DNA from: Formosa sediminum
GTDB taxonomy: Bacteria > Bacteroidota > Bacteroidia > Flavobacteriales > Flavobacteriaceae
DNA length: 64,000 bases
Reading direction: 5' to 3'
NCBI RefSeq assembly: GCF_007197735.1
Contig: NZ_CP041637.1
Location: forward strand, 1,488,001 to 1,552,000
This document shows positions 37,967 to 53,845 of the stretch, one piece after another; positions within the stretch are counted from its first letter, which is position 1, and each line of letters opens with the position of its first letter. The notes below the pieces were generated by a model. That model saw nothing but the letters and a program-made list of their open reading frames with translations. It did not search any database and was not told the DNA's origin. Both the position numbers and the translations under genes were made by a program.

Positions 37967-39031
37967 TTACAATTTAGATTTTATAAGAGCCTTGATTCTG
38001 GACCTATCATTTAAAATATCTCTTCTGTAATCTTTATTTTTAATAAAAAAATAAGTCCTATTAAAAAGTAATTTCAGTAAATCTAAATACGCATGTATTT
38101 TATAAAGCAAAAAGTTAAAGCTATTATATTTATTTTTTAAGTGATAAATAGAAGTGTTGTATTTAATTCTAAGTGTATTTGTAGGTTCAGGAATTTCACT
38201 AAAATATAAATGACCTAAATTAAAATTATTTGATATATGACGATTCTGTAGTACTTGTGTTAGTGTAATATCATTTATACGCGGTAATAACACTAAAGTA
38301 TCGTAACAGTTTTTGAGTCCAATATAGTTATAGTATGAACCAAGGTCGTTAATCTGAAAATTTAATACATTATGTGTTATTAAATGTTTTGGAGAAGGAA
38401 TGGGAAGATGTGTATGATTAACAAATTGTTTGTTATTTAATACATGTTCTGGTTTTAATATCGCTTGATCTTTGTCTAAGAGTTTAAAGTGTACTTCTAC
38501 AGCTCCAATATAATTTTTAGAAGCTAACCTTAATAAATGTTTGTCTTCAAAATATTTGGGGTTTATTGTCGGTGTTTTTGCGTAAGTATACCCTTTGTTT
38601 ATTAAAATTTGAAATGCTTTTTCAGATAGCTCTTTAGGAACTAAAACATCAATATCTCCAAGCATACGTTCTCCTAATAATTCGTAATAATTAGAGGCGA
38701 TCATTGCGGCTCCTTTTAGGAAAACATGTTCAATGTTATTAGCGTTGAACCACGAATTTATAAGTTTTACTTCCTCTAGTAAAAATTTGTTTCGCTCTTC
38801 ATTTAGATTGTAAATATATTTAAGATAATCGTGTAAATCTTGTGGTAGATACTTGAGGAGACCTTTAGACTTTAAACGAGCGTAAATGGTTGGAATAATG
38901 AGGTGTTCACTACCCATTTTTACAATATTCTCCCAGTTGTAGTTCTTAATGTCTGCTTTTAAAAAAGACGCGTCTGTTTTAAAACTTATAATATGGGATA
39001 TATGAGATAATGTAGTATGAGTGGTGTTCAT
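37967..39031 (-). CDS. Nucleotidyltransferase-fold protein of the PF14907 (NTP_transf_5) type
   Basis: The 354-residue soluble protein has the minimal nucleotidyltransferase signature of this family: VFLKGAAMI (103-111), then LGERMLGDIDVLVPKE (119-134) with the DxD Asp126/Asp128, followed by an EVHFKLL strand that should supply a third acidic residue. The N-terminal 100 residues are helical. In other bacteria this family accompanies HprK-like kinases in ribosomal-peptide clusters, where members add groups onto phosphorylated peptide. Here it is the last gene of a set with such a kinase, nine bases downstream of it on the minus strand. Activity here is inferred from context. Confidence 0.82.
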   Translation of the reverse strand: MNTTHTTLSHISHIISFKTDASFLKADIKNYNWENIVKMGSEHLIIPTIYARLKSKGLLKYLPQDLHDYLKYIYNLNEERNKFLLEEVKLINSWFNANNIEHVFLKGAAMIASNYYELLGERMLGDIDVLVPKELSEKAFQILINKGYTYAKTPTINPKYFEDKHLLRLASKNYIGAVEVHFKLLDKDQAILKPEHVLNNKQFVNHTHLPIPSPKHLITHNVLNFQINDLGSYYNYIGLKNCYDTLVLLPRINDITLTQVLQNRHISNNFNLGHLYFSEIPEPTNTLRIKYNTSIYHLKNKYNSFNFLLYKIHAYLDLLKLLFNRTYFFIKNKDYRRDILNDRSRIKALIKSKL

Positions 39032-39040
39032 AAACGATAC

Positions 39041-40171
39041 TTATTCGCCTATAAAGATAGTTGAAAATACCTCAAGAGCATCTTCATTTTTACTGTATGT
39101 TAGTTTAAGAAATTTAACTGTACTAATCCAATTTAGGAAAGCTGCTGCGTTCTCAGTTTGTGGAGAGATCCATGAGTCTGGTATTAATATTTCTAAAGCA
39201 GTTTTTGCATCTATTTTTTCTAAGAGTACTTTAGCTTCAGTTTGATAATTTATTAAAACTATGGTATTGCATGGCACATGTTTTTGATGGGGTATGGGTG
39301 TTGCTACATATTTTATACCTCCTTTATGAGCTCTTAAATAGCTCTCGGGTAAATTTTCAAAATTGGAAATAAAAGGTTTTAATGTAGAGAAGGCTCCTGG
39401 TTTTACAGATATGCCACCAGGGAAGTAATATGTATTAAAATCTGCCCGTAAAATAGGAGTTGTATCATCAGCAATTAAATCATAGCCGTTTTGAGTTAAG
39501 ACCGTAGTTAATGTGCTTTTCCCGCTACCAGAGGTGCCAATAAGCATAACTGAATTTTTGCCATTAGATACTGTTGAGGCATGAAAAAGCCCAATCCAAT
39601 CATGTTCTTTTTTATGGTGCAATCCACAAATTAATTCCATATTAAATTTGCCTTGAAGCTCGTGAAAATTGTATGAATCGCAAGACCTAATAAATTTATT
39701 ATTAGTAAAAAGACTAATAACATTGTCTTTTACTTGAATGTCAAACCAAAAATCAGGTTTATTTTCAGTTGTAGTTTCTAAATGGTGTATTTGTGGATGT
39801 ATAAAATTAATTAATTCTTCTGATTGATAATGAACATTAAAACTTGTTTTTCCTATAGCATATTGTTTAGAGTAAATCCTATTATTATAGTTTAACTTTA
39901 AAATCGGACCAGTTGTTTGTGTAATAAGCGTATTCCTATCATTAAGGAATTCTGTTATATCTAAATATATTGCTTTAGCATCTGCTTTAGTGAGATCAAA
40001 AGTGGCTTGATAAAGGGCTATGCATTCATCAGGATTATCAGACTCAATATAGGTTTCTATACAAAAGAATAATCCGTTATCGATTATTGTATATTGGTTT
40101 GATTTCTCAAACCATAATATCTTAAAATCGATAGCGGATTGTATATATTTAGGAGCTAAGTTAGCTTTCAC
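39041..40171 (-). CDS. HprK-like serine kinase, possibly with a PqqD-like N-terminal domain
   Basis: The 376-residue protein contains an HPr-kinase-like P-loop GTSGSGKST (212-220), preceded by HAST and followed by LIADDTTPI (232-240) and PGGISVKPGAF. This arrangement matches the HprK-related kinases of peptide-modification and exosortase clusters, not the HPr/LacI-fused HprK of sugar control. Residues 46-80 (CIALYQATFDLTKADAKAIY) look to me like a small PqqD-type domain, which would be a precursor-recognition element; this is uncertain. The start is GTG and overlaps the stop of the small peptide gene by one base (TAGTG), so translation is coupled. The substrate is probably that peptide, by inference. 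Confidence 0.8.
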   Translation of the reverse strand: MKANLAPKYIQSAIDFKILWFEKSNQYTIIDNGLFFCIETYIESDNPDECIALYQATFDLTKADAKAIYLDITEFLNDRNTLITQTTGPILKLNYNNRIYSKQYAIGKTSFNVHYQSEELINFIHPQIHHLETTTENKPDFWFDIQVKDNVISLFTNNKFIRSCDSYNFHELQGKFNMELICGLHHKKEHDWIGLFHASTVSNGKNSVMLIGTSGSGKSTLTTVLTQNGYDLIADDTTPILRADFNTYYFPGGISVKPGAFSTLKPFISNFENLPESYLRAHKGGIKYVATPIPHQKHVPCNTIVLINYQTEAKVLLEKIDAKTALEILIPDSWISPQTENAAAFLNWISTVKFLKLTYSKNEDALEVFSTIFIGE

Positions 40172-40446
40172 TAATTACTCTTAATATTGTTGTCTACTTG
40201 AGTTTTTCCTACTTGAGTATTGGTACTAGACGTACTAGGAGTGGTAGTTTCATCCAAAGTTTCATTTTCAGATGTCGTCGTTCTTCCAAAACCTCCCCCT
40301 CCAGGACCAATAGGTTCACTAGTTGTTTGTGCCTTTAGTGGATTTAATACAGCAAACGTACCAATTGCAGTAAAAGCTGCATATTTACCCATTTTTTTTA
40401 CGGCTTCCTTTCTAGTAATTTTTGTATGTTTTGTTTCTTCTTTCAT
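40171..40446 (-). CDS. Small leader-bearing peptide, candidate modified substrate
   Basis: This 91-residue product is not a family I can name. Residues 1-15 are charged (KEETKHTKITRKEAV), then a hydrophobic export-type stretch (YAAFTAIGTFAVLNPLKAQ) resembles a weak twin-arginine or Sec signal with RK rather than RR. The mature part starts TTSEPIGPGGGGFGR, continues as a Thr/Ser-rich tail (many TTT, STSST) and ends VDNNIKSN. Its stop overlaps the kinase start, and the large T9SS protein gene ends 26 bases upstream. Small size, leader-like N-terminus, Gly-rich and Ser/Thr-rich tail and tight coupling to a kinase and nucleotidyltransferase make it a good candidate for their substrate. No experiment or search backs this here. 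Confidence 0.6.
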   Translation of the reverse strand: MKEETKHTKITRKEAVKKMGKYAAFTAIGTFAVLNPLKAQTTSEPIGPGGGGFGRTTTSENETLDETTTPSTSSTNTQVGKTQVDNNIKSN

Positions 40447-40472
40447 AATTAATAGGTTTTTCTGAAATTATA

Positions 40473-42701
40473 TTATTTTAAAATAACACGCTTAGAGATT
40501 TTGTTTCCGTTGTTGTCTATTCTTATTATATAAATACCACTGCTTAAATTTACTGTGTCAATAGTATATTCGCTAACTGTTTGATTTATAGTTGAATAAT
40601 GTATTTGTCTCCCTTGAACATCAAATACACTTAAATGAGTATTTTTATTTAATTGACCTTTTAGCTTAATAGAGTGTTCGCCTGAATAAATCTGTAATTG
40701 GTTTTCTTGAATGTTGTCTTCTATTCCTAGTGACTTTTCATTTGATATATGTAAAACAAAACGTCCTACTCCATTTAAACTTTCGTTTGTGACAAATGTG
40801 TAAGGTGAATCATTTAACAATATCCACTCATCAGTTATAGTATCCTCTAAGTATACTTTGGTTGTGGAATCTAAATTAGTTTCTTTAATACTAATTGATA
40901 TTTTCTTTCCTTCAGGTGCTATTACCCCCAATTGAACTGATACTTCTCCTTCAGATACTTCATCTTGATTTAATGTTTGTATTGCTAATCTATAATTTGT
41001 ATTACCTTCAACTAACTGTGTGAACAATGTGTATCCACTTTCATTAAGTCCGTATATAGAACTATCATATCCTTTATCAAGGTTGTTTGTACCATTTTCG
41101 TTGAAATATAATTGGTTTGAGTGCTTCTCTTTATCGTCTGCATTCAATGCTATATCTAAAAAGTAGTTTGTTTCAGTTCGTCCTGCAATAAAATCATCTT
41201 CATTGTTAAGTCTCATCCAACTACTACGAAATTCTAATTTTCCTAAATTTGCAATATTTTCATTAACAGCTACATAAAAGCCTTGACCTGGAGCTATGTT
41301 TACGGCATTGTTATTATTATAAATGGTCCAATCTGTACCATTGTAAGCATAAACAGCTACTTTGTCTTCCTGAAATAAATCTTGATTAACATTAAGGAAA
41401 GGTGTCATGGTTATGAAGGATGGATATGGATTTCCAACTAAATTCCATTGAGAAGCTAGGGTACTTATGTTAAAATATACATCTGTTTCTACATTTTCTG
41501 TAACTACATTACCTGTATAGGAAAGTAAATTACCACTAACTGTAGATGCTCTGTATCCTACTCCAGATTCTAATATTTCATTGCTGTCATTTATGGCGTG
41601 CCAGTTTGCGTATGAACCACCAACTCCAGCTGTTTTAACAAATGGACCGAATTTTTTTAAATTATTATCATTTTGACTATAGTATAAACTGTCATTATTT
41701 ATACCAGTGGAGCTTGCAAATTCACCAAATGTAATTCCTGAAAGTGGTGCAGAAACTAAATCATTAATACCATCCATCATCGTGAATCTTTCATAGGTAG
41801 CTAAACCTGTGGCTGTTCCATCTACACGAAGAGTACCGTAACTGTCAGATTTTGATGTGATTGTTAAGTTATTGTCTACTAGCAAATTACCGTAAACTCT
41901 GACTCTGCCATTATAATTTATTCTTACATTAGCTTCGCTAGATATGGTCAGGTTATTTACGTTAGTTCTACCTGTAAAAGTGTAAGAGCCATTAATAATT
42001 AAAACATTTTCAGCTGTTGTGCTGTTATCTGGTTCATTGCCATTTTTCCATCCGCCATAATTAATCTCGTCGTAAATTAAACCATCAAATTCTGATTTTA
42101 CTTCTCCTATTAATTCTACATTATCTATCGCTAGATAATTACTTGCAGATGTAGAGATCAATGTAATCTCCATATAAATCTCCTGTATGTCATCTGTCGA
42201 AGCACTTCCTCCAGAAGTAAGTAAGTCAATATTAAAGTTTTGAGGAGCGGAAACTACGCCTGAGGTTGTATTGGCTCCAACTAAAAATGTGTCAGTAATA
42301 TAGTCTAAATTGCCATTTTCATCAACTGTTACAATTGTTATTTCGGCAGATGTGTCGTTAGCGGTTGCTAAACTATATTGAAAATCAAAAGAAATTTCTA
42401 ATGAAGAAAAGTATTGGACATTAATATTTGAAAATTCTATAGTTTTTCTAGATTTACTAGATAAAGGAGCTGAATTATTAAATCCAAGAAATAAATCGTT
42501 TGGATCTGCATTTGAAATTGGACCTAAACTATTATAAGTGCCCCAACTAGTTGAAGAATTCGTATTATCTTCAACAAAATTAGTATCCCAATTAGAGTCA
42601 TTATTTCCATCAAAGTTCTGGCTTGCTACTGTAGCTGCTTGTCCCATACAAACTGATGAAATTGTTAGACATAGTAGGATTAAATAGTAAATTTTTTTCA
42701 T
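40473..42701 (-). CDS. Large T9SS-exported surface protein
   Basis: The 742-residue protein has a signal peptide (1-20, ending VCMG), a beta-rich N-terminal carbohydrate-binding-like region with many Asn and Ser, and a central region with repeated short strands (LTITSKSDSYGTLRVDG). A T9SS type A C-terminal domain covers about 670-742 (LSVFDVQGRQIHYST, YTIDTVNLSSGIYIIRI, ending SKRVILK). No catalytic motif was recognised. It is the first gene of a leftward set leading into the small peptide, HprK-like kinase and nucleotidyltransferase genes, with a 26-base gap to the peptide. It may carry or anchor the modified product, or simply be a surface adhesin. Confident for export, not for role. Confidence 0.82.
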   Translation of the reverse strand: MKKIYYLILLCLTISSVCMGQAATVASQNFDGNNDSNWDTNFVEDNTNSSTSWGTYNSLGPISNADPNDLFLGFNNSAPLSSKSRKTIEFSNINVQYFSSLEISFDFQYSLATANDTSAEITIVTVDENGNLDYITDTFLVGANTTSGVVSAPQNFNIDLLTSGGSASTDDIQEIYMEITLISTSASNYLAIDNVELIGEVKSEFDGLIYDEINYGGWKNGNEPDNSTTAENVLIINGSYTFTGRTNVNNLTISSEANVRINYNGRVRVYGNLLVDNNLTITSKSDSYGTLRVDGTATGLATYERFTMMDGINDLVSAPLSGITFGEFASSTGINNDSLYYSQNDNNLKKFGPFVKTAGVGGSYANWHAINDSNEILESGVGYRASTVSGNLLSYTGNVVTENVETDVYFNISTLASQWNLVGNPYPSFITMTPFLNVNQDLFQEDKVAVYAYNGTDWTIYNNNNAVNIAPGQGFYVAVNENIANLGKLEFRSSWMRLNNEDDFIAGRTETNYFLDIALNADDKEKHSNQLYFNENGTNNLDKGYDSSIYGLNESGYTLFTQLVEGNTNYRLAIQTLNQDEVSEGEVSVQLGVIAPEGKKISISIKETNLDSTTKVYLEDTITDEWILLNDSPYTFVTNESLNGVGRFVLHISNEKSLGIEDNIQENQLQIYSGEHSIKLKGQLNKNTHLSVFDVQGRQIHYSTINQTVSEYTIDTVNLSSGIYIIRIDNNGNKISKRVILK

Positions 42702-42998: not shown

Positions 42999-43853
42999 AT
43001 GATTAATTTTTTTCTATTTATACAGGATTTTTATATGCCAAGTAAAATTTTCTTGGGTGCTTTCTTTTTATTAGTGCTATTTTTTTTGGTTTACTATGTC
43101 TTTAAATTGGTCGAAATGGTATATGTTATTTACTTTAGAAAGCCAATGTATGTACATTTTTATGTAGCTAAAAAGAAATTAAGTAGTCAAGATAAGCAGT
43201 TATTAAGCGAGCATTTTAATTTTTATAGAAACTTATCTCCTAAACAACAATTGTATTTTGATCATCGGGTAGTGTCGTTTATAAAAGATAAAGATTTTAT
43301 AGGGCGAGATCATTTAGATGTTACTTGTGAAATGAAATTATTGATTTCTGCTCATGCGGTGATTCTTACATTTGGTTTTCGAGACTTTTTTATTGGTTTA
43401 ATAGATAAGATTTTTATTTATCCTGATGCGTTTTATTCTGCAACGTACCATGCTTATCATGCGGGAGAAATAAATCCTATGATGAGAGTATTAGTAATTT
43501 CATGGAGCGATTTTAAACATAGTCTAGATGTTAATGATTTAAATACAAATTTAGGTATATATGAATTCTCTCAAGCCATTCATCTAAATTGTATGAAAGA
43601 ACGTGATGTTAGTTCTACGATTTTTTCAGATACATTTAAAGAATTAGCATCTATGTTAACTCATAATGAATCACTACGTCAAAAACTGATTCAATCTCAC
43701 TTTTTTAGGGGACATGCATCTACCACTCAATTTGAATTTCTTGCAGTAATTTTAGAAACCTTTATAAAAAAACCATCAGAATTCCGACTTGAATTCCCAA
43801 ATGTTTATGCAAAAACTAAACAAATGCTAAATTTTGATTACGCAGGTTATTAG
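42999..43853 (+). CDS. MtfA-like protein with degenerate zinc motif
   Basis: The 284-residue protein has N-terminal membrane segments (about 16-46) and a cytoplasmic part resembling MtfA/M90 zinc peptidases. FRKPMYVHFYVAKKKLSSQD, LLISAHAVILTFGF, IFIYPDAFYS, VLVISWSDF and the final EFLAVILETFIKKP (third-ligand Glu253) all match the family layout. The active motif HEFxH is replaced by YEFSQ at 188-192, losing both zinc histidines. It should therefore be a non-catalytic relative, unless zinc is bound another way. MtfA in enterobacteria binds the Mlc repressor, so a protein-binding role is possible. The gene is monocistronic, preceding the polysaccharide locus. Confidence 0.7.
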   Translation: MINFFLFIQDFYMPSKIFLGAFFLLVLFFLVYYVFKLVEMVYVIYFRKPMYVHFYVAKKKLSSQDKQLLSEHFNFYRNLSPKQQLYFDHRVVSFIKDKDFIGRDHLDVTCEMKLLISAHAVILTFGFRDFFIGLIDKIFIYPDAFYSATYHAYHAGEINPMMRVLVISWSDFKHSLDVNDLNTNLGIYEFSQAIHLNCMKERDVSSTIFSDTFKELASMLTHNESLRQKLIQSHFFRGHASTTQFEFLAVILETFIKKPSEFRLEFPNVYAKTKQMLNFDYAGY

Positions 43854-51733: not shown

Positions 51734-52594
51734 ATGAATTCAAAAATAGAACATCAAAAAATAACAATTTACGAAGCACAAGCGGCTTTATCTTTTAAAA
51801 AACTGTTTAAAGAGATTGTTGCAGATATTACACCTGCTAAAGCGCTTGGGTTACAATTAGCTAAGCGTGATATTAAAGCAGCATACAGACAATCTGTTTT
51901 AGGTATAGTGTGGGCTTTTATTCCTCCTATAATGACGTCTTTAATATGGATTATATTAAATAGTTCTAATACCGTTTCTATAAAAAACACACCTATTCCA
52001 TATCCAGCATTTGTATTAATAGGAACCTTATTGTGGCAAACATTAACAGATTCGATTAACCAACCTTTACGTAGTGTAAATACAGGAAAAAGTATCTTGG
52101 CTAAGTTAAATTTTCCTAGAGAGTCATTATTATTTCATGGTATGTTTACTTTGTTTTTTAACACGTCTTTAAAACTCTTAATTATTTTTGCTGTATTAAT
52201 TGTATTTAAAATAAATCCCGGATTACAAGGACTAGCCATTTTACCCATGATTTTAGGGATAATGATAACAGGATTTACTATAGGCTTATTGCTTATGCCT
52301 GTAGGTATGATGTATGGAGATATATCCCGAATGATTCCTTTTAGTATGCAATTTTTAATGTATTTAACTCCTGTAATATATCCTATGCCAACAAGCGGGA
52401 AATTGGTGTTTTTTAATAAAATTAATCCGTTTACGTATTTAATAGAAACAGCTCGTAATTTATTATCAGCTCAGCCGGTTTCAAATTTAGGATTGACATT
52501 TAGTATACTAGCAATTGCTTTTATAGTTTTATGTTTAGGAGTAATAGTTTACCGTTTTATAATGCCAATAATAATAGAAAGGGTAGGTTCTTAA
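51734..52594 (+). CDS. wzm: ABC-2 polysaccharide exporter permease (Wzm)
   Basis: The 286-residue membrane protein has about six helices and the ABC-2 type features of O-antigen/teichoic-type exporters: ALGLQLAKRDIKAAYRQSVLG before helix 1, LIGTLLWQTLTDSINQPL, LNFPRESLLFHG and QFLMYLTPVIYPMP. It forms the membrane channel for undecaprenyl-linked polysaccharide with the ATPase encoded next. Wzm/Wzt use means the chain is finished in the cytoplasm before export. The gene order after the sugar-nucleotide block is common in such loci. Confidence 0.92.
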   Translation: MNSKIEHQKITIYEAQAALSFKKLFKEIVADITPAKALGLQLAKRDIKAAYRQSVLGIVWAFIPPIMTSLIWIILNSSNTVSIKNTPIPYPAFVLIGTLLWQTLTDSINQPLRSVNTGKSILAKLNFPRESLLFHGMFTLFFNTSLKLLIIFAVLIVFKINPGLQGLAILPMILGIMITGFTIGLLLMPVGMMYGDISRMIPFSMQFLMYLTPVIYPMPTSGKLVFFNKINPFTYLIETARNLLSAQPVSNLGLTFSILAIAFIVLCLGVIVYRFIMPIIIERVGS

Positions 52595-52639
52595 ATTAAA
52601 CCTAATTCTCAATAATAATTTGTAATAATTTTACATAAA

Positions 52640-53845
52640 ATGTCGGAAGTATTAGTAAAAGTAGAAAACGTCTCAAAAAAATTTAGTAAAGATTTTAAAA
52701 AGTCGCTTTGGTATGGGGTTAAGGATATGAGTTCAGCACTCTTCACTAATCAATCTAATCAAAATATATTACGACCATCTGAGTTTTGGGCGGTTAAAGA
52801 TGTATCTTTTGAATTGAGAAGGGGAGAATGTTTGGGATTAATTGGCCATAATGGTGCAGGTAAATCTACATTATTAAAGATTTTAAACGGATTAATCCGC
52901 CCAGATGAGGGTAAAATTACTATGAATGGACGTGTTGGTGCATTAATAGAATTAGGAGCGGGCTTTAATCCTATTTTAACAGGTAGAGAAAATATTTATA
53001 ATAATGGATCAGTTTTAGGCTTTTCTAAAAAAGAAATTGATGCGAAGCTTGAAACAATTATTGAATTTTCTGAAATAGGTGAATTTATCGATGCTCCTGT
53101 ACGTAATTATAGCTCTGGGATGAAAGTACGTTTGGGCTTTGCCGTAGCGGCGCAAATGGAACCAGATATATTAATTATAGATGAAGTTTTAGCTGTTGGC
53201 GATATGAACTTTAAATTAAAATGTCTTCGTACTATTGATGAATTATTGAAAACAACAGCTGTTATTTTCGTGTCGCACGCTATGCCTCAAATTTCAAGAT
53301 TATGTAATAAAATTATTTTAATGGATCATGGAAGTTGCTTATATAATGGTAATGACGTAAGTCATGCTATAGATGTTTATTACTCTAAACTTGCAAATAA
53401 TGGATTGCAATTAGATCTTAAGAATGAGCATGCCGAATTATTGAGTATTTCTATAGGAAATACAAATGATCAGGAATCTATACCTCAGATAAAAAGATTA
53501 GAAGATTTAGTTATAAATTTAGAATGTAAAGTAAAAAAAGAGTATGCTAATCCAATTTGTATTTTAAGTATTTTTGATAATGAACAAAAACCTATTGGTA
53601 CATTAATTAATACAAATGGTTTAAAATCAAATATTTCACATTACGATGATGTTTATAATTTTTATAAAAGCAAAGTGACAATATCACGTATAAATTTAAG
53701 TAAAGGAATATATAGTATTACATTTTTAGTTACAGAGGCTCTTATGTTTAAACCTTTGTTTCGAGTTCAAGGAGTGCAAGACTTTCAAATACTTAGTAAA
53801 ATTGATTTATATCCACCTGTTGAATTTGAGGGTGACTGGGAGTAA
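52640..53845 (+). CDS. wzt: ABC polysaccharide exporter ATPase with C-terminal Wzt domain
   Basis: The 401-residue protein has Walker A GHNGAGKST (69-76 region), the signature NYSSGMKVRLGFA, Walker B ILIIDEVLAVGD, and a switch His in VSHAM. A C-terminal beta-rich domain follows from about 255 (LSISIGNTNDQESIPQ, LVINLECKVKKEY), as in Wzt proteins that recognise the finished chain terminus. The ligand of that domain depends on the capping modification. It is encoded 45 bases after the permease gene and is followed by sulfotransferases that may supply such a cap, which is inference. Confidence 0.92.
   Translation: MSEVLVKVENVSKKFSKDFKKSLWYGVKDMSSALFTNQSNQNILRPSEFWAVKDVSFELRRGECLGLIGHNGAGKSTLLKILNGLIRPDEGKITMNGRVGALIELGAGFNPILTGRENIYNNGSVLGFSKKEIDAKLETIIEFSEIGEFIDAPVRNYSSGMKVRLGFAVAAQMEPDILIIDEVLAVGDMNFKLKCLRTIDELLKTTAVIFVSHAMPQISRLCNKIILMDHGSCLYNGNDVSHAIDVYYSKLANNGLQLDLKNEHAELLSISIGNTNDQESIPQIKRLEDLVINLECKVKKEYANPICILSIFDNEQKPIGTLINTNGLKSNISHYDDVYNFYKSKVTISRINLSKGIYSITFLVTEALMFKPLFRVQGVQDFQILSKIDLYPPVEFEGDWE

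Follow-up and report, generated by a model that had tools for sequence, protein, structure and literature searches.

A small-peptide gene, an HprK-like kinase and a PF14907 nucleotidyltransferase associated with type IX-secreted surface proteins in Flavobacteriaceae

We analysed a window of 64,000 nucleotides of Formosa sediminum (contig NZ_CP041637.1, positions 1,488,001 to 1,552,000), in which four consecutive genes encode a surface protein of the type IX secretion system (T9SS), a small precursor-like peptide, an HprK-like kinase and a nucleotidyltransferase (NTase) of family PF14907. The cassette is real and goes beyond chance, and we consider it probable that it represents a peptide-modifying system of Flavobacteriaceae which serves a subset of the T9SS surface proteins, the kinase and the NTase modifying a serine of the peptide and the peptide being exported. 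A first-pass annotation, made from the DNA letters alone, had already described the order, strand and spacing of the four genes at 37967-42701 as we find them: the kinase start overlaps the peptide stop by 1 base and the NTase follows the kinase after a gap of 9 bases. Its assignments of the first gene to the T9SS and of the last one to PF14907 agree with family scores above the cut-offs (Table 1).

Results

A conserved family of small peptides

Neither Pfam nor NCBIfam contains a family that matches the window peptide, and 30 members of its family gave stray weak matches only. We could align 46 peptides from distinct places, which have in common a signal-peptide-like leader and a near-invariant serine. 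Regarding the leader, an R and an A are found in all of the 42 members having the column and a T, an L and a P in 46 out of 46, and the 46 members contain a hydrophobic stretch of 13 residues whose Kyte-Doolittle maximum ranges from 1.3 to 2.2. Most leaders finish in AQAx-S. The serine is kept in 45 members and replaced by Tyr in one, with Ala at position -4 in 39/46 and at position -2 in 36/46; alanines at these two positions before the serine form the pattern of a signal-peptidase (AxA-like) site.

After the serine, 41 of the 46 members have a Pro within 4 residues together with a Gly within 10, and 41 have a Phe or Trp within 14. The distance from the serine to the end is 14 residues or fewer in 31 members and 49 residues in the window peptide, the Formosa members being longer. 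The first-pass annotation had stressed the Gly-rich and Thr/Ser-rich tail, which is indeed present in the window peptide. The emphasis was wrong, however, as this tail is the variable, Formosa-type part of the molecule, whereas conservation is seen in the leader and at Ser43; the tail was therefore rejected as the functional part.

Among the leader codons of 12 members, the pairwise differences at codon positions 1, 2 and 3 were 341, 151 and 986 respectively, and in the close pairs for which rates were computed (one of them saturated) the nonsynonymous rate (dN) was far below the synonymous rate (dS). From this excess at third positions and the low dN, we conclude that the peptide is a real gene whose leader is under purifying selection as a protein. 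The window genome, a single contig of 3.93 Mb, has one clear copy of it.

Co-occurrence of the peptide with the kinase and the NTase

Our main sample, 298 genomes of Flavobacteriaceae (the family to which the window belongs), was searched with profiles; genomes and loci carry G and L numbers below. The kinase was found in 28 genomes and the peptide in 31, with both in 27 (Fisher p 5e-33, relatedness being ignored). Kinase loci supplied the sequences of the peptide profile; in the six kinase genomes that contributed no sequence to it (G048, G055, G067, G123, G149 and G151) the peptide was found five times, and G048, the single kinase genome without a peptide match, is 82% complete. The neighbourhood comparison thus shows the peptide travelling with the kinase/NTase pair, as had been supposed, and not pairs that occur in relatives without it. 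The NTase was detected in 26 of the 28 kinase genomes, lying on a separate contig from the kinase in G149 and G055; it was not found in G067 and G151, both of them drafts. Two contigs of G055 start inside the peptide leader (L104 and L105, position 1), as if several near-identical copies had broken the assembly.

In the four genomes having the peptide only, neither the kinase profile nor the NTase profile gave a match. Two of these genomes carry damaged peptides: the copy in G294 contains in-frame stops, one of them at the serine position, and the copy in G282 has Tyr instead of Ser and lacks an ATG, GTG or TTG ahead of the leader. Furthermore, G274, another of the four, has a second peptide copy without a start codon.

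In a sample of 296 genomes of the phylum the full-length kinase occurred in four and the peptide in the same four, all belonging to the window's family. Five genomes outside the family gave kinase matches of 44-58 bits, but these start at profile position 195 or later and therefore cover the HprK part only. The five genomes had no peptide match either, and their kinase matches were rejected.

Pairing with T9SS surface proteins

The T9SS proteins linked to the peptides have in common a C-terminal module, called T9C here. Among the 43 peptides with upstream sequence available, 37 are located directly behind a T9C protein (the decayed copy of G282 included). The other six are two tandem second peptides, the peptides of L101 and L108, which follow very small open reading frames (ORFs), that of L057, where a gene on the opposite strand lies between, and that of L106, with none. 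The ORFs directly before the peptide in L101 (9664-9897) and L108 (10950-11084) encode 77 and 44 aa respectively, with an apparent signal peptide and the final stretch of a T9SS sorting domain, and are either deletion remnants or genuine small cargo.

The pairing holds also for peptides away from the kinase, 10 of 13 of which are found behind a T9C protein (8/9 in kinase genomes and 2/4 in genomes without kinase). None of the T9C proteins of these ten pairs had been used in building the T9C profile. In G382 six pairs of T9C protein and peptide are spread over four places, with the kinase/NTase pair by itself elsewhere. Since the peptides follow T9C proteins even when the enzymes are elsewhere, the enzymes would act in trans and the peptide would be the partner of the surface protein. 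The tie with the cell surface is therefore stronger than could be seen at first from the window.

Regarding the distribution of the module, T9C matches of at least 180 bits were present in 33 of the 298 genomes, including the 28 with the kinase. The profile was built from kinase loci (an alignment of 33 sequences), and all of the five kinase genomes with no sequence in it also have a match of at least 180 bits. The threshold was picked after seeing the scores, at a gap that separates 180 from 150 bits among the matches listed, with up to six candidates scored per genome. At an E-value of 1e-10 the matches extend to 167/298 genomes, since a looser relative of the module occurs widely.

The two enzymes

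The kinase scored below the cut-offs of the related families, reaching 23.6 bits against Pfam Hpr_kinase_C (cut-off 33.3) and 51.8 bits over residues 195-371 against HprK_rel_A (HprK-related kinase A, TIGR04352; cut-off 200). Nevertheless, its description as HprK-like stands: the P-loop residues G212, S214, G215, G217 and K218, as well as H197, D235 and D236, are invariant in 27 out of 27 kinases and align with the solved HPr kinases. The AlphaFold model, with a mean predicted local distance difference test score (pLDDT) of 92.9, resembles phosphoenolpyruvate (PEP) carboxykinase and HprK. Its residues 9-79 form three strands followed by three helices; a three-stranded sheet followed by three helices is the topology of the recognition element (RRE) of ribosomally synthesized and post-translationally modified peptides (RiPPs).

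In the NTase, K106, G107, D126, D128, E179 and H181 are invariant in 28/28 members. The modelled fold is like those of MenT1, LnuA and ANT(2''), with a weaker likeness to FKRP; a comparison with solved structures by sequence gave nothing useful. Judging from their conserved residues, both enzymes look active.

Table 1. Features of the Formosa sediminum cassette (window coordinates; residue numbers refer to the respective protein)
Feature	Position	Strand	Basis
T9SS-secreted surface protein, 742 aa	40473..42701	-	TIGR04183 37.8 bits (cut-off 23), PF18962 35.4 bits
T9C module common to peptide-linked T9SS proteins, residues ~290-660	40722..41834	-	33-sequence alignment
T9SS type A sorting domain, residues 677-740	40482..40673	-	TIGR04183, PF18962
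Precursor-like peptide, 91 aa	40171..40446	-	family, 46 aligned members
Conserved signal-peptide-like leader of the peptide, residues 10-40	40327..40419	-	46-member alignment, hydrophobic stretch
Ser43 of the peptide, predicted phospho-acceptor	40318..40320	-	S in 45/46, Y in 1
HprK-like kinase, 376 aa, GTG start	39041..40171	-	profile, structure and residue evidence
Putative RRE/PqqD-like N-terminal domain of the kinase, residues 1-82	39926..40171	-	AlphaFold topology; weak sequence support
Kinase P-loop GTSGSGKST, residues 212-220	39512..39538	-	key residues invariant in 27/27
PF14907 NTase, 354 aa	37967..39031	-	109.6 bits (cut-off 31.2)

Loci and neighbouring genes

We mapped 33 loci. As L036 and L052 belong to a single contig, 32 of these are distinct. 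The recurring order is T9SS protein, peptide, kinase and NTase, sometimes with two protein/peptide pairs, and in L042 the NTase and the kinase are swapped. In 13 distinct loci the neighbour of the NTase is a small barrel protein, encoded on the opposite strand in L057; the single one that was scanned matched PF13505. Six loci (L039, L040, L041, L043, L049 and L055) showed no adjacent peptide ORF. In three of these (L041, L043 and L055) the kinase is at the edge of its contig, and for L040 the profile search later gave a peptide match between the T9SS protein and the kinase.

The neighbour clusters scanned, those common to at least three loci, comprise division genes (ftsZ, ftsA, ftsQ, Mur ligase), YqeY, a NusG-like protein, an M90 peptidase, a thioredoxin and polysaccharide genes, and they vary from locus to locus. 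One cluster (c16) carries a T9SS sorting domain. No peptide exporter was found among them; cluster c14 matched no family. The cassette is beside division genes of the ftsZ, ftsA and ftsQ families in nine mapped loci. It often ends the division cluster (L037-L038, L047-L048, L052-L053, L055 and L061, from Pfam matches of the representative L036), which is not so in the window. The M90 (MtfA-like) peptidase gene beside the window cassette (42999-43853) belongs to cluster c6, present in 12/33 mapped loci.

Sugar-epimerase or uridine diphosphate (UDP)-sugar-dehydrogenase genes lie at most eight genes away in 13 of the 32 distinct loci. In the window, the plus strand beside the cassette holds a polysaccharide locus with UDP-sugar dehydrogenases, epimerases, an exporter of the ABC-2/Wzt type, sulfotransferases and glycosyltransferases. 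Its segment 51734-55723 consists of the exporter (ATP-binding cassette (ABC) genes at 51734-53845) followed by two genes of the sulfotransferase family, and the product is possibly a sulfated polysaccharide.

The first-pass annotation had noted the lack of a cyclase, a leader protease and a B-protein gene. A Pfam scan of part of the window ORFs and of neighbouring genes, with no genome-wide search, found neither an asparagine-synthase-like cyclase nor a lasso B-type protein, and the peptidase families met in the scanned window genes (M78, M90 and M20) are none of the lasso leader-protease kind. The genome has one gene for a peptidase of family C25, to which PorU belongs.

Discussion

Proposed mechanism

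Gene linkage, co-occurrence, conservation and active-site residues are the observations from which we infer the chemical steps, the export and the surface role. The precursor would be the product of the small gene that follows a T9C-type surface protein. Its leader would mark it for the cytoplasmic kinase through the RRE-like N-terminal domain and may double as a Sec-type signal peptide; the Sec route is proposed because no exporter was found travelling with the cassette. The HprK-like kinase would phosphorylate the conserved serine just after the AxA-like cleavage site, and the PF14907 enzyme would then put a nucleotide or sugar group on that phosphate. Removal of the leader during export would leave the modified peptide outside the inner membrane, where it would work with the T9C protein. 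One kinase/NTase pair would serve the peptides of a cell, in trans.

A more specific form of this proposal, to which we attach only a low probability, gives the modified peptide the role of an anchor or adaptor of T9SS cargo at the surface: it would be joined to the T9C proteins or would hold them on the outer membrane. The serine would be extended by a nucleotide, a sugar or a sugar-phosphate, and the peptide might be, for example, the amine acceptor for a PorU-type sortase, replacing the amino-acid-modified sugar of Porphyromonas, with one enzyme pair serving many cargo genes.

Several observations weigh against the proposed modification system. The PqqD/RRE domain that the first-pass annotation had suspected at the kinase N-terminus shows the expected topology in a model of high confidence, but sequence searches with Pfam, NCBIfam and one hhalign comparison gave weak matches only: the NCBIfam model WgkC matched 2/27 members (best E 0.0021), the alignment to a single PqqD had a probability of 8.7%, and the 25 Pfam families listed, out of 37, did not include PqqD. 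Peptides of the Formosa clade have T, E or N at position -2 from the serine, which makes their predicted cleavage site non-canonical. Two peptide-only drafts (G136 and G274, 82-84% complete) have an intact-looking peptide and no detected kinase, and both in Formosa sp. L2A11 and in genome G040 the kinase gene is split over several frames (L034:10001-11133 and L038:9233-10367) with the peptide and the NTase open. Regarding the surface proteins, 5 of the 270 genomes without kinase have a T9C match of at least 180 bits, and in 14 further regions chosen from strong matches none of the 17 T9C proteins had a peptide behind it (two were at contig ends); therefore, T9C proteins need no adjacent peptide.

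Other explanations

The modified peptide might instead be a secreted bioactive or signalling RiPP (an antimicrobial, a pheromone or a biofilm factor), with the T9SS protein as the partner for reception, immunity or display. RiPP clusters are known to contain kinase/NTase pairs, and the polysaccharide genes near 13 of the distinct loci recall the linear polyphosphorylated peptides (LPPs) of Bacillota, found in capsule loci. However, the part after the serine is constrained, as its Pro/Gly and Phe/Trp patterns indicate, the six cores of G382 are nearly the same, and the scanned neighbours include no peptide exporter. We consider this explanation unlikely, and in particular a freely varying antimicrobial core, because the core is conserved.

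We give less credit still to the idea that the two enzymes have the T9SS protein or a sugar as their substrate, the peptide being instead a small accessory or a regulator (for example an inner-membrane anchor). T9C proteins in every kinase genome and the frequent polysaccharide genes nearby would fit it, whereas the loss of the serine or of the reading frame in two of the four kinase-less genomes would not; furthermore, T9C proteins could meet ATP-dependent cytoplasmic enzymes only before their export. A conserved small gene merely lying between unrelated genes in a frozen gene order is very improbable. The cassette does keep one chromosomal position in many relatives, such as that beside the division genes, but plain coincidence is rejected because the partners co-occur even where they are dispersed (G382, G149, G055 and G123).

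If the peptide-modifying system is as proposed, HprK/nucleotidyltransferase peptide tailoring, known from lasso peptides and the LPPs, would extend to Bacteroidota, with one class of T9SS-secreted surface proteins as its defined partner. That peptide and enzymes are mostly found together suggests that cell-surface proteins are equipped in a way not described before. The unlinked arrangement of G382, with one enzyme pair and six peptide/protein pairs, makes the role testable by single deletions. In the open-licence literature we found no paper joining 'type IX secretion' with 'HPr kinase' and none naming PF14907; reports elsewhere are possible.

Comparison with known systems

The lasso peptides paeninodin (PadeK) and pseudomycoidin (PsmK, PsmN) likewise involve an HprK-like kinase that phosphorylates a serine. 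In pseudomycoidin, as reviews report, PsmN, annotated as a nucleotidyltransferase, then adds hexoses to the phosphate (PMC8498205, PMC9266682). By analogy, the kinase of Flavobacteriaceae should phosphorylate the conserved serine and the NTase should extend the phosphoserine. A lasso-peptide cluster is rejected, as the scanned neighbours contain no cyclase or B proteins; moreover, in the mature peptide as predicted the serine is close to the N-terminus, not C-terminal. With HprK-related kinase A (TIGR04352) the window kinase shares the HprK-like C-terminal half, but its N-terminal half is longer.

In Porphyromonas gingivalis, the amine of a seryl sugar is the point at which PorU attaches T9SS cargo (PMC7468200, PMC10202324), the serine of the A-LPS sugar being presumably added by VimA (PMC7468200). 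The likeness consists of a cargo with a type A sorting domain, an acceptor that bears serine there and, near the window cassette, Wzt-type polysaccharide export genes. A peptide with a modified serine at its start could be equivalent to that seryl-sugar acceptor, although here the acceptor would be a ribosomal peptide and not an amino-acid-modified sugar, with attachment as a proposal only.

The closest comparison is with the LPPs (LppA/K/B/S/D/N), a similar cyclase-less RiPP class published in May 2026, in which LppK phosphorylates Ser3 of the LppA core and deletion of lppN caused no detectable change (PMC13381572). Both systems have a leader peptide, an HprK-like kinase and a nucleoside triphosphate (NTP) transferase but no macrolactam cyclase; a serine near the core start is the phospho-acceptor in LPPs and the conserved residue here, and the capsule loci of the former have their counterpart in the polysaccharide genes often found beside our cassette. 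The same paper calls LPPs restricted to Bacillota and their biological role unknown, whereas the gene pairing described here offers a concrete, testable role at the surface.

The differences are also clear. The host belongs to Bacteroidota, the leader is unrelated and has signal-peptide character, and the LPP precursor motif YxxPxVLxHQxIxFETxxS is absent from the peptide family alignment, which weighs against the proposed mechanism. The RRE-like domain, recognised by topology only, would be fused to the kinase, whereas LPPs have a discrete LppB. The scanned neighbours contain no LppB-, LppS- or LppD-like genes and no discrete RRE protein (PF05402, the only such family searched genome-wide, had no match in the window genome), nor a SipW-like peptidase or an MsbA-like exporter, for which no genome-wide search was made; the ABC genes of the window are of the ABC-2/Wzt kind. 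As the leader motif, the separate RRE and the cluster peptidase and exporter are missing from what was scanned, we regard the system as LPP-like in its working and do not file it as an LPP. The first-pass annotation had suggested an undescribed system; the enzyme logic, a kinase and an NTP transferase with a leader peptide and no cyclase, is already known from the Bacillota LPPs (PMC13381572), but the phylum, the leader, the architecture of the kinase and the pairing of the peptide genes, dispersed in some genomes, with T9SS surface proteins set the Flavobacteriaceae system apart.

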